Shown one piece after another: positions 9,407 through 26,320 of a stretch of DNA of 59,161 nt; the first letter of the stretch is position 1, and each line of letters opens with the position of its first letter. The DNA is taken from the NCBI GenBank assembly GCA_902801985.1, contig CADCKD010000009.1, positions 1 through 59,161 of the forward strand, in the 5' to 3' direction. The notes under the pieces are model-generated. The model was not told where the DNA came from and did not search any database. It worked only from the letters and a program-made list of their open reading frames with translations. The position numbers were made by a program, and so were the translations under genes. This DNA is from an uncultured bacterium (GTDB lineage Bacteria; Cyanobacteriota; Vampirovibrionia; Gastranaerophilales; Gastranaerophilaceae).

Positions 9407-9817
9407 ATGAAAGTTCAATCTGTAAACAACGTTTCTTTTGGGGCAAGAATTAAAGTAGGTAAAGAACTTAAAGGATGTATGGCAGAATTTTCACAAAGAC
9501 CTGAATTGAGCACAGGTTCTTCCGTTCTTGGCGGAATTGGTTCTTTATTTGCAGGAGCATCAAGCACACAAACAGTCGCAACCGCATCTGACGTTGCAGC
9601 TAGTGCATTCTTATCTAAAGGTATAGGAGTAAATTCTTCAGGAATAGCGCCATCTGTTATGGCAAAATTGTCGCCTATAATGACACCGGCATCAGTTGCT
9701 TCCGCAAATGAAAACCCTAGCATCATAGGTTCTATCGCTAGTTCCATTGGCGCATTTATGCACAGATTAGGCGGAGAAATAAGAATTAATTCCACTCAAA
9801 AGAAAATACCTTCATAA
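9407..9817 (+). CDS. Small Ala/Ser-rich protein with N-terminal V-S-F-G-A motif
   Basis: No function is recognised. The 136-residue protein starts M-K-V-Q-S-V-N-N-V-S-F-G-A-R and has no Sec signal peptide. The middle is rich in Ala, Ser, Gly and Thr with short hydrophobic patches (V-L-G-G-I-G-S-L-F-A-G-A; I-I-G-S-I-A-S-S-I-G-A-F), which could insert into or lie on a membrane. A strong Shine-Dalgarno (AAAGGGG) precedes the ATG. It is divergent from the flagellar operon and convergent with the dCMP deaminase gene. The N-terminal motif recurs in unrelated proteins in this window. The true coding status is supported by the Shine-Dalgarno and the terminator placed exactly at its stop. Confidence 0.65.
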   Translation: MKVQSVNNVSFGARIKVGKELKGCMAEFSQRPELSTGSSVLGGIGSLFAGASSTQTVATASDVAASAFLSKGIGVNSSGIAPSVMAKLSPIMTPASVASANENPSIIGSIASSIGAFMHRLGGEIRINSTQKKIPS

Positions 9818-21785: not shown

Positions 21786-22277
21786 TTACCGTTCACAAGA
21801 ATTATATATATAATCGCATAAATCTCTTACTGCACCTTTTCCGCCTTCTTTTGACGAGATAAAGTTGCATATATTTTTTACCCTATCAACTGCATCTGCA
21901 GGACAAGCAGAGATTGCGACTTTTTCAAGAATAGGAATATCGGGCTCATCATCACCCATATATGCTACTTGAGAGTAATCAAGTTCATACTTTTCCATAA
22001 TACCTTCCAGTATTGGAAGTTTATTTTTGACACCCTGAAAAACTTCACTAAATCGTAAATCTTCAGCACGTCTATCAACGGTACCATTTCTACGACCTGT
22101 TATAACGGCTGTTAAAAAACCGCTTTTTACCATCTTTGCTAGGCCATGACCGTCTTTTGCATTAAATGTTTTATATTCTATACCGTTTTCATCATAAGTT
22201 ATACTGCCATCGGTCATAACACCGTCTACATCAAAGGCTAAAAGTCTGATTTTTGAAGCTTTCTCTTTCAAATCCAT
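21786..22277 (-). CDS. kdsC: 3-deoxy-D-manno-octulosonate 8-phosphate phosphatase KdsC
   Basis: KdsC hydrolyses Kdo-8-phosphate to Kdo for the LPS inner core. The 163-residue protein is a HAD-type C0 phosphatase without a cap: F-D-V-D-G-V-M-T-D-G (nucleophile Asp16, acid Asp18), I-T-G-R-R in motif II, K in V-K-N-K-L, and M-G-D-D-E-P-D in motif IV. The start overlaps the kdsD stop by one base (TAATG), so it is translationally coupled to the gene for an earlier step of the same pathway. This indicates a diderm envelope with Kdo-containing LPS. Confidence 0.95.
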   Translation of the reverse strand: MDLKEKASKIRLLAFDVDGVMTDGSITYDENGIEYKTFNAKDGHGLAKMVKSGFLTAVITGRRNGTVDRRAEDLRFSEVFQGVKNKLPILEGIMEKYELDYSQVAYMGDDEPDIPILEKVAISACPADAVDRVKNICNFISSKEGGKGAVRDLCDYIYNSCER

Positions 22278-23254
22278 TACGCAACACCTGCTCTTAATAA
22301 ATCGTGAACATGAATAACACCTACAGGATAATTATCTTCATCAACAACCGCTAATGCCGTAATTGAATATTTTTCCATCAAATTCAGTGCAGAAGCAGCA
22401 TAAGAATCAGATGTTATTCTTTTAGGATTTACCGTCATAACATCCTTTACACTCAACGATGAAGTATCGGAATATTTAATTATAGTTCTTCTGATATCAC
22501 CATCTGTTAGAACTCCGACAAGACGCTTGTCAGATCCCAAAATCATGGACATACCCAATTTGTAATCAGAAATAGTTTTTATAACATCTTGGAAGCTGTC
22601 ATCCTCACTGACTAATGGCATCTTTTCTCCTGTTATCATCAAATCTCTGACCTTGTATGTCAAACCTTTACCAAGTTTTCCGGACGGATGGAACATTAAA
22701 AAGTCTTCTTTCGTAAAGCCTTTTTTCTCCATAAGACAAACCGCCAGAGCATCGCCCATTGCTAGTGTAGCAGTAGTACTGGCTGTTGGAGCTTTACCCA
22801 AAGTATCTGCCTCCCTTTCAACGGATATATCCAAAACAACTTCACTTGTTCTCGCCAAAGTAGAATTTAAATTGCCGGTCATACCAATCATAGGGCAGCC
22901 GAAACGTTTTATTAACGGCAAAAGATTTAGCAATTCTTGAGTTTCACCGCTATTTGAAATAGCTATAATGACATCATTTCTTGTAATTACCCCTGAATCA
23001 CCGTGAGTACTTTCTGCCGGATGCAAAAAATACGCAGGAGTACCGGTAGAAGACATCGTAGCCGCAATCTTTTTACCAATTAGACCTGATTTACCCATGC
23101 CTGTGACGATTACACGGCCTTTGCAATTATACAAAATATCAATTGCCTTATCGAATTCTTCACCGATATTATCTTTCAATCTCAAAATAGATTTTGCTTC
23201 TATATCTAAAACTTCTTTTGCTGATTCAATAATACGTGATAAAGTCATTTCCAT
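22277..23254 (-). CDS. kdsD: D-arabinose-5-phosphate isomerase KdsD (KpsF/GutQ family)
   Basis: KdsD converts ribulose-5-phosphate to arabinose-5-phosphate, the first step towards Kdo. The 325-residue protein has an N-terminal SIS domain with G-M-G-K-S-G-L-I-G-K-K-I-A-A-T and S-T-H-G-D-S-G-V-I, followed by two CBS domains (about residues 205-325) ending H-V-H-D-L-L-R-A-G. The Shine-Dalgarno AGGG lies 5-6 bases before the ATG; a second ATG two codons later is possible. It is the first gene of the kdsD-kdsC-queD-uppP run. Confidence 0.95.
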   Translation of the reverse strand: MEMTLSRIIESAKEVLDIEAKSILRLKDNIGEEFDKAIDILYNCKGRVIVTGMGKSGLIGKKIAATMSSTGTPAYFLHPAESTHGDSGVITRNDVIIAISNSGETQELLNLLPLIKRFGCPMIGMTGNLNSTLARTSEVVLDISVEREADTLGKAPTASTTATLAMGDALAVCLMEKKGFTKEDFLMFHPSGKLGKGLTYKVRDLMITGEKMPLVSEDDSFQDVIKTISDYKLGMSMILGSDKRLVGVLTDGDIRRTIIKYSDTSSLSVKDVMTVNPKRITSDSYAASALNLMEKYSITALAVVDEDNYPVGVIHVHDLLRAGVA

Positions 23255-23371: not shown

Positions 23372-24319
23372 TTACGATTTTTGCGCACGATTTGTAGAAA
23401 GATTATAGTGTTTTGCCAGTGTTCGAGCAGTTCTATAAGATACATGGAGTTTTTTAGAAAGCTCAACATAAGTTTTACTGTTATTTATTGCCTCAGCTAC
23501 TTCCGCTTTTGAAACAGGATATCTCTTTTTGGGAATGTTAATACCGTTATCTTTTAACACTTTTATAACATTTGCCTTATTAACAGAATACGCTTTTACA
23601 ATATCACTGATATTCATACCTTTTTCTATACAGGCCATTAATTCTTGCTTTGTAATTTCGTTTGTTATTCCCTTCATTGATTGGGTTTTCAGACCGTGAT
23701 TTTCCAATTTTTTCTTAATATATTGAGGAGAAACCTGATATTTTTTCCCGAGATCCTCTAAAGTAAAACCTTGTTTTAAATACATTTTTAATTCACTTAA
23801 AGGAATACGATCCACCTTGGCTTGAGTAACTTTCTTACCATATTTTTTAATCAAAGGAGTCAAAGCACCGGGATCGTCAATATTTAAAGCCTTTGCTATT
23901 TCTTTTTGAGACAATCCCATATCTATCAATGCGCACAATTCTGCTTCATCAATTTGTGCCAATGATTTTGCCTGTTTGGTCATTAGACCAAATCGTTTTA
24001 ATAAGCTGCGAACTGTGCTTATTCCTACGCCCAAAATTTTTCCGACCTGACTTAAAGACTTACCTTCATTAATTAAAGTTTCGACTTGACCACGGTCAAA
24101 TTTGTCATAATCCAACTGAACCGAACTTATAGCTGAATTTATGCCATTCTTTTTACAATATTTAAAAGCAGTAGCCTTTGAAATGCCCATAACCTCAGCA
24201 ATTTGTCTGTAACTAAGTCCCTTACTTGTCAGTTCTTCAAGCTTTTTAGGATCTACATAAATTGGTTTTGCTTGAAAATTAGGGGCAGATGCATATTGAT
24301 ATGATGAGTTTATAAACAT
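23372..24319 (-). CDS. Protein of six tandem helix-turn-helix units with N-terminal N-F-Q-A motif
   Basis: After an N-terminal tail containing A-P-N-F-Q-A-K-P (residues 12-19), the 315 residues are built almost wholly from six HTH units at about 24-60, 75-111, 124-161, 173-210, 223-260 and 271-306, spaced about 49 residues apart. Each reads roughly E-L-x-x-x-I-x-x-G-x-[ST]-x-x-x-[IL]-[AG]-K-x-x-x-V-[ST], then a recognition helix and a conserved K-x-x-G-[IL]. The units resemble resolvase/MerR-like or sigma-region-4-type HTH folds. No catalytic or sensor domain is visible. A modular DNA-binding protein that reads a long site is the simplest idea. A Shine-Dalgarno (AAAAGGAAG) precedes the ATG. 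Confidence 0.85.
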   Translation of the reverse strand: MFINSSYQYASAPNFQAKPIYVDPKKLEELTSKGLSYRQIAEVMGISKATAFKYCKKNGINSAISSVQLDYDKFDRGQVETLINEGKSLSQVGKILGVGISTVRSLLKRFGLMTKQAKSLAQIDEAELCALIDMGLSQKEIAKALNIDDPGALTPLIKKYGKKVTQAKVDRIPLSELKMYLKQGFTLEDLGKKYQVSPQYIKKKLENHGLKTQSMKGITNEITKQELMACIEKGMNISDIVKAYSVNKANVIKVLKDNGINIPKKRYPVSKAEVAEAINNSKTYVELSKKLHVSYRTARTLAKHYNLSTNRAQKS

Positions 24320-24382
24320 TTACGACTTCCTTTTCTATACCTAAAAACCGTAAAAAATTTTTTTGCCATCATAAAATATTTT

Positions 24383-26320
24383 TTAAGAACAACCTGAGTA
24401 CCCACAATTTGGACAAATAAAGCAGCCTTCTGCCATGTGTATAGATGTTCCGCACTCAGGGCATTTTACCTCTTTTATTTCTCCTGTCGGGTTGTATTCT
24501 TCTGCTTCCGGTTGTTGTTCCGGCTGTTTTTGCTCCTGCAAATTCATAGGTTGAAAACTTCTTGAATTATTTCTATATACTGTAATTCCTTTCAATTTAT
24601 TTTTATAGGCAAGGATATAAGTTTCTTTTATGTCTTCCCTTGTCGCAGATTCAACAAAATTTACCGTTTTTGACACCGCATTATCAGTGTGCATTTGAAA
24701 TGCAGCTTGCATCTTTACATGCCAATACGGTGTAATATCATGAGCAGTTACAAAAACTTCTTTTGTATGAGTGTCCACAGAAAGGACATGCGCAACAGAA
24801 CCATCTTTTGAGATTTCTTTCATAAGATCTTCACCATACAACCCGTTTGTAATCATATAATTTTTAAATATCGGATTTATCTCCAGCATTTCGGTATTAT
24901 CAAGAATTAACCTTGAGAATACCAGCCCGAATAACGGCTCAATACCGCATGAAGCTCCTGCAATCATAGATATGGTTCCTGTCGGAGCAATACATGTTGT
25001 TGTCGCATTGCGTAAGCCATATTTTTCAACTTGAGAATCCAATTCTGACCACTGCTCAAGAGAAATTTTACCAAAAGAATTCTCTTTATATTTTGAACTG
25101 AAATAATTTTTACCCTCATAAATACTTCCGCTAAAATTGGCAAAACGTCCCCTTTCTTGAGATAATTTCACAGACTCTCGTTTTGATACATAATCAATAA
25201 ATTCCATAACCTGCCCTGCAAGATTGACACCATCTTGGGATGAATACGAAATTTCAAGTTTCATGAGCATATCTGCCCAGCCCATAATTCCTAAACCTAT
25301 TTTGCGGTTAGACTTTACCATTTTTTCTATTTGAGACAAAGGATAATGATTTATATCAATTACGTTATCAAGAAAATGAATTGCAAGTTTGACAGTATTT
25401 TCTAAAAGACTCCAATTAATCTTTTTATCTTGAACCATTAATCCTAAATTTATAGAACCCAAATTACACGCTTCATAAGGCAAAAGAGGGACTTCGCCGC
25501 ATGGGTTTGTTGATTCAATCTGTCCTATTTGCGGTGTCGGATTATCTTCATTCATTCTATCGATAAATATTATCCCCGGTTCACCGTTTGACCACGCCCT
25601 ATCGACAATTTTATCAAATACAAATTTTGCACTCAGCTTATGATGAATACTCCCATCCTGAGGATTTATTAAATCATAATCCTCATTATTAAAGTATGCT
25701 TCCATAAATTTATCGGTCAAAGCAACAGAGATATTGAAATTATTCAATGAAGTATTATCTGATTTGCAATCAATAAATTCTAAAATATCAGGGTGATCAA
25801 CTCGTAATATACCCATATTTGCTCCGCGTCTTGTTCCACCCTGCTTAACAGCTTCAGTTGCGGCATTAAAGACATTCATAAATGATACAGGGCCTGATGA
25901 AACACCCATTGTAGAACGCACTACACTATTTTTAGGCCTTAATCTTGAAAAGGAAAAACCCGTTCCCCCTCCAGACTGGTGAATAAGTGCGGTATTTTTA
26001 ATCGTTTCAAATATCCCTTCCAATGTATCTTCCACAGGCAAAACAAAACAAGCGGCAAGCTGCCCGAGTTCTCTGCCGGCATTCATAAGTGTCGGAGAAT
26101 TTGGCATAAAATACAGATTTGTCATAGCTGCATAAAAAGCATCCGACAATTTCTTAACTTCATCCGGACTTTTACCATAAGATAAATCTCCTTGAGCAAT
26201 AGTTTCTGCTACTCTTTTAAACATATCCTCGGGAGTTTCGGTACAAACACCGTTTTTATCACGTTTCAAATATCTTTTTTCAAGTACTCTGATAGAATTC
26301 TCTGTTAAATTTAGTGTCAA
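24383..26320 (-). CDS. nrdJ: Adenosylcobalamin-dependent (class II) ribonucleotide reductase
   Basis: The enzyme reduces ribonucleotides to deoxyribonucleotides with a B12-derived radical and needs no oxygen. The 645-residue protein has the N-terminal redox Cys in L-A-A-C-F-V-L-P, the finger loop with N-P-C-G-E and [10 protein letters not shown], and [11 protein letters not shown]. The C-terminus is a zinc ribbon with C-x-x-C pairs ending G-Y-S-G-C-S, probably the reductant tail. The start is TTG at 26320, chosen because GGAGG (26327-26331) is well placed and no in-frame ATG or GTG fits. I see no cobalamin riboswitch in the 141-bp upstream gap, shared with htpX. Confidence 0.94.

Follow-up and report, generated by a model that had tools for sequence, protein, structure and literature searches.

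On the minus strand of the 59,161-nt stretch of DNA analysed here (the window), positions 23372..24319 encode a 315-aa basic protein (net charge +24, pI 9.7) in which six tandem helix-turn-helix (HTH) units follow one another along the chain. Single chains that string together many different HTH units are, to our knowledge, rare, and the question raised by this locus is what such a protein does: whether each unit reads its own part of one long DNA site, whether the chain coats or bridges DNA with little regard to sequence, or whether it serves some other purpose.

Six diverged HTH units

To delimit the units, we iterated a unit profile over the relatives of the protein described below, which placed unit starts at residues 24, 78, 123, 172, 222 and 269. 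Unit 1 occupies 24089..24250 (aa 24-77; helices 24-32, 37-44, 48-57), unit 2 occupies 23954..24088 (aa 78-122; helices 76-84, 89-96, 100-110), and unit 3 occupies 23807..23953 (aa 123-171; helices 125-133, 138-144 and one from 150), the last with an insertion, I-D-D-P-G-A-L-T-P, that is common to its orthologs. Unit 4 follows at 23657..23806 (aa 172-221; helices 174-182, 187-194, 198-207), unit 5 at 23516..23656 (aa 222-268; helices 224-232, 237-243, 248-257) and unit 6 at 23375..23515 (aa 269-315; helices 271-280, 284-291, 295-304), all on the minus strand. The unit consensus, I-T-K-E-Q-L-x-x-L-I-x-S-G-K-S-V-K-E-I-C-x-E-L-G-I-S-x-x-T-Y-Y-R-L-L-K-K-F-G-I-x-T, is that of a canonical HTH, and against Pfam the protein scores above cut-off with HTH_23, HTH_28 and others; these matches, together with the predicted structure, place its tri-helical units in the homeodomain-like/HTH_23 superfamily. 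To exclude circularity, we left the window protein and its ortholog out of a rebuilt unit HMM, and units 1 to 6 still scored 30.9, 28.5, 20.9, 23.5, 23.0 and 26.4 bits, far above the top score of 9.5 bits among 2,000 composition-shuffled copies of the protein.

A structure prediction of the full protein, which the preliminary description had named as a check on its claim of six units, yielded six HTH folds rather than a model without them. The AlphaFold2 model, built with 14 sequences, contains 18 helices arranged as 6 x 3 (mean pLDDT 73, pTM 0.31), and a 475-aa nine-unit relative was likewise modelled as nine tri-helical groups (pLDDT 79, pTM 0.30). The presence of six HTH units is thus near certain. 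In both models the helices are predicted with confidence and their relative placement is not, a pattern that fits beads on flexible linkers and not one rigid solenoid. The nearest structural neighbours of the individual units are DNA-binding HTHs of resolvase, Mos1, paired-type and Cbp1-like proteins, at modest Z; the best Z was 6.6, the chain ranked first is not a DNA binder, and we attribute these low scores to the units being small and common.

The units are tandem repeats, as had been described, with an actual spacing of 45-54 residues in place of a strict 49; relatives are more regular, at about 52. The conserved glycine noted earlier near the turn is mainly the residue before helix 2, where it occurs in 75% of 198 family units, and unit 6 of the window protein has a serine at that position. 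Pairwise identity among the six units is just 12-37%, which rules out a recent internal duplication and marks them as old, diverged repeats.

A sporadic family and a defined insertion site

Upstream of the gene lies that of an adenosylcobalamin-type ribonucleotide reductase (RNR; 24383..26320, minus strand), and downstream that of a KpsF/GutQ-type sugar isomerase (22277..23254, minus strand), both read from the sequence. The 63-nt gap to RNR (24320..24382, minus strand) holds the ribosome-binding site AAGGAAG that precedes the ATG start; we found no sigma-70-like promoter in it, pointing either to co-transcription with RNR or to an unrecognised promoter. Between the array gene and kpsF lies a promoter-like stretch belonging to kpsF.

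Comparison with related genomes shows the gene to be cleanly inserted behind RNR in some species and missing from that spot in close ones. The array gene sits between RNR and kpsF in G000 and G009, and in G013 and G019 the two flanking genes adjoin, about 110 nt apart. In G019 the spacer of the empty site matches the one adjoining kpsF in the occupied locus, promoter-like stretch included, so the cassette lies directly after the RNR stop. In G006 and G024 an orthologous array follows RNR and is itself followed by a secY-like gene, and in G017, G020, G021 and G027 RNR adjoins the secY-like gene with no array between them; RNR is the conserved left border of the site. The spot upstream of kpsF is variable within the genus (L071-L094): among its occupants are pilin-like genes and short conserved ORFs encoding about 60-85 aa.

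The preliminary description had suggested looking for proteins with at least five such units in related genomes, and these do exist. The searches made recovered about 25 proteins, none with a nuclease, mostly with 5-11 units and commonly 9, with a unit period near 52 residues; one short member (L056) has 2 units. We define the family by at least five tandem units together with an N-terminal tag, F-x-[GAS]-[KRNQ], and the window protein has six units and the tag FQAK. Searching contigs with the window protein alone as query found nothing, and 14 loci came up when the query was a profile built from the regular relatives. Two members, L053 and L056, have an extra Pfam-less N-terminal part. A Pfam-less C-terminal stretch of about 400 aa, possibly an effector domain, follows the 10-11 HTH units of L050 (7996-9216) and L054. 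The literature searched contained no paper on HTH arrays in Gastranaerophilales or on an N-terminal motif in that order.

Occurrence of the family is sporadic. Similar proteins are encoded in 8 of 46 congeneric genomes, 17 of 191 genomes of the family and 24 of 286 in the order sample, or roughly 8-17% across the samples searched, and within a phylum sample of 339 genomes they are confined to one GTDB family; the source genome has a single copy. A general nucleoid-associated or DNA-bridging protein, as the preliminary description had also considered, would coat or bridge DNA with little sequence preference, and a basic, multivalent and flexible chain (pTM 0.31) would suit that role. A single-copy gene missing from most congeneric genomes is not what a housekeeping chromatin protein would look like, however, and we consider this explanation rather improbable.

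The array evolves quickly under constraint. Between G000 and G009 it is 45% identical, vs 94% for KpsF, with a dN of 0.50 vs 0.041 (about 12-fold) and a dN/dS of 0.27 vs 0.03, at synonymous sites near saturation; other family pairs have a dN/dS of 0.08-0.16. These ratios point to a constrained protein under purifying selection, though a fast-evolving one. Units 1-4 correspond to those of G009 in the same order (39, 58, 62 and 43% identity on the diagonal, mostly 15-32% off it), unit 6 is missing from this nearest ortholog, and in G006 and G024 the conserved part is units 2-4, over which the array is 45-46% identical to the window protein. Orthologs differ by whole units, having 5, 6 and 8. Fast divergence and presence or absence at a defined site would also be expected if a mobile nuclease or transposition protein (an HTH-HNH homing endonuclease or a TnsD/TniQ selector) had lost its effector, leaving its targeting part behind, domesticated or derelict and drifting, and both a homologous Lak-phage region, in which tandem HTHs are fused to HNH, and an above-cut-off TnsD Pfam match, confined to the HTH part, lend this idea some weight. 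Drift is nevertheless at odds with the purifying selection seen throughout (dN/dS 0.08-0.27) and with some two dozen intact array-only members spread across genera, and transposon or integrase genes do not recur near family genes. We judge this origin improbable.

The tag and a putative phase switch

The N-terminal tail (24251..24319, minus strand; residues 1-23), predicted to be disordered up to about residue 16, carries the tag as M-F-I-...-P-N-F-Q-A-K. At sequence level the tag is real and family-wide: it occurs near residues 12-22 in 21 of 26 family members, vs 49 of 1195 in a sample of other genes from the source genome, and most of the tagless members show either a near-variant or a start that is out of frame. 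The earlier remark that the N-F-Q-A motif is otherwise found on non-regulators proved broadly right, with similar tags on about 20-25 proteins in 1.26 Mb of the source genome, with starts rich in N, P, S and T. The carriers are mostly uncharacterised and have almost no Pfam domain, an example being window 9407-9817. A lineage-wide form M-x-I-...-[NSTP]-F-x-[GA]-[KRL] recurs on Pfam-less proteins of widely differing length, including that same ORF and those at loci L098, L101, L103, L105, L113, L149, L180 and L181 of the source genome.

If the tag (in its F-x-[GA]-[KR] form) were a targeting signal shared with non-regulators, the array could be an exported or compartment-targeted DNA binder with TALE-like logic, and the enrichment of the tag on mostly Pfam-less carriers, fast evolution and possible phase variation, the latter two usual for interface proteins, would agree with this. 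On the other hand, a VirB4-type secretion ATPase is encoded in 0 of 46 genus genomes, no signal peptide is apparent, and the tag might just as well serve for docking or degradation inside the cell; we consider export very improbable.

Of the roughly 25 family genes inspected, three contain a G/C run 11-13 long in the opening 130 nt of their coding sequence: a G11 tract at L045:2020 and a G13 tract at L046:7601, in both of which tag and array lie in different frames, and a C11 tract at L051:8962, where the frame is open. Across 786 kb examined there are five tracts of at least 11, three of them inside family genes (binomial p ~6e-4, in a test made after the tracts were seen). We think it fairly likely, judging from these sequences, that the gene is phase-variable in some relatives; homopolymer assembly error is a possible source of the tracts in L045, L046 and L051. 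The window copy has no G/C tract, and phase variation is rejected for it. A fourth tract, G13 at L052:9129, lies in a tag-bearing ORF (L052:8938-9791) divergent from the adjoining array gene of Ca. Gastranaerophilus phascolarctosicola; the sequence behind this tract weakly resembles a Pfam family of tyrosine phosphatases (18.7 bits, under the cut-off).

Recognition helices and a probable reading of DNA

Positive charge in the window protein is concentrated where an HTH would contact DNA: all six helices 3 are positive and together contribute +16 of the net +24, and the helices 1 sum to -4. We then aligned 13 relatives of the nine-unit type unit by unit and measured how much of the variation in each column is explained by unit identity. 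The excess of unit-specific information over shuffled labels was 0.67 bits in helix 3, compared with 0.35 in helix 1 and 0.29 in helix 2 (Mann-Whitney p = 3e-4), a signal that comes from the nine-unit sister group, the window's own group comprising only 4-5 sequences. In these relatives unit-specific conservation thus concentrates in helix 3, implying that each unit keeps its own recognition helix through evolution, as a composite DNA site would impose; the evidence for this is indirect. The claim that the recognition helices differ from unit to unit is upheld by the same result, and such conservation would be needless for sequence-blind coating, which further disfavours a nucleoid protein.

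RNA or protein can also be the ligand of an HTH fold, and SelB winged-helix RNA-binding repeats are among the weak structure matches. A non-DNA-binding helical solenoid, which the preliminary description had named as the finding that would count against it, or an RNA-binding scaffold, is nonetheless very improbable given the six canonical tri-helical folds, with a conserved turn, a basic and unit-specifically conserved helix 3, confident helices whose packing between units is undefined, and sequence matches that are DNA binders.

We consider it very probable, from sequence features and the predicted fold, that the protein binds DNA, and we infer the site and the regulatory outcome along with the binding itself. 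The poly-HTH protein would be a nuclease-free modular DNA-binding array in which six units on flexible linkers each place their own recognition helix into successive major grooves, together covering one long composite site of tens of base pairs; holding such a site, the array could act as a local repressor or activator, a roadblock or an insulator. We assign a probability of roughly 0.7 to the reading in which the protein binds a long composite site sequence-specifically and acts there as a local regulator or roadblock. Of the earlier proposal of modular DNA reading, the part that stands firmly is an HTH array with unit-specific helices; the reading itself is held at the strength just given. 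We found no target site, no partner gene or regulon conserved beside the family as a whole, and, in the short gaps upstream of family genes, no convincing shared operator beyond ribosome-binding sites and T-runs. A more ambitious version, which we regard as speculative and on the whole unlikely, is a natural lineage-specific reader of long sites, built from HTHs and comparable in its logic to TALE or zinc-finger arrays, which gains, loses and re-specifies units between species, in some lineages is switched by G/C-tract slippage, and is delivered or docked via the lineage-wide F-x-G-[KR] tag.

Should every unit recognise a few bases of its own, the rules by which tandem HTHs read long DNA could be worked out from these natural arrays of 5-11 units, whose orthologs differ by whole units, and the family would be a candidate compact modular DNA-targeting scaffold. 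The phase-variable copies, if truly so, would mean that a gut bacterium randomly switches a long-site DNA binder.

Comparison with known tandem-HTH systems

Tandem HTH arrays are already known: Cbp1, T5 D5-like regulators, TnsD and a Lak-phage HTH-HNH protein all have them. The window protein belongs to this known class of multi-HTH DNA-binding arrays and has a high number of units. Its best NCBIfam match is Cbp1, the CRISPR repeat-binding protein of Sulfolobales (NF040595; 52 bits, under the cut-off of 140), which likewise consists of tandem HTHs with short linkers and no other domain. Cbp1 lays three HTH units 5' to 3' along one CRISPR repeat site (PMC10883916); it is archaeal and three-unit, whereas the window protein is bacterial and six-unit. 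Cas1 is absent from all 8 congeneric genomes that carry the gene, G000 included, and the 2 Cas1-positive genomes lack the array gene, leading us to reject Cbp1-like CRISPR-array binding for this genus.

Among the best PHROG matches are phrog_323, the D5-like regulator of phage T5, and phrog_14131, multi-HTH DNA binders like the window protein but from phage families. The match to phrog_323 runs only through HTH stretches, and the gene has chromosomal housekeeping neighbours, placing it outside the D5-like group. A tblastn search with the 9-unit protein found no phage relative, a scan of viral contigs gave one weak match, and a phage origin was set aside for want of a close viral relative; plasmid relatives were likewise not found. 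Defence-system membership was rejected as well, PADLOC matching only generic HTH.

The C-terminal multiple HTH domains of TnsD/TniQ read the attachment site of Tn7-like transposons (PMC10293859). The TnsD Pfam match covers only HTH residues 224-302 of the window protein, which has HTH units from residue 24 and lacks the N-terminal TniQ core (helical domain and zinc finger), and no Tn7 genes were seen near the gene. The Lak-phage HTH-array HNH endonuclease (MK250024) has about three to four like HTH units (27% identity over 121 aa) and ends in an HNH nuclease (PF13391); the Pfam matches listed for the window protein include no nuclease domain, HNH or otherwise, and HTH units fill its chain after residue 23. 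This phage protein emerges at L142:2863-3825 (MK250024, Lak-B5) when TAG is read as Q, and is unannotated in the record. The only PDB chain matched by sequence, 8vd6 ('CAP REPEAT'), is also a tandem array of an HTH-like unit, but its repeats of about 33 residues are near-identical where the units of the window protein are diverged; it looks like a designed protein and is not a natural relative. The proposed mode of action resembles that of Cbp1, D5-like and TnsD-type arrays, yet membership in each of these groups fails on a tested feature.
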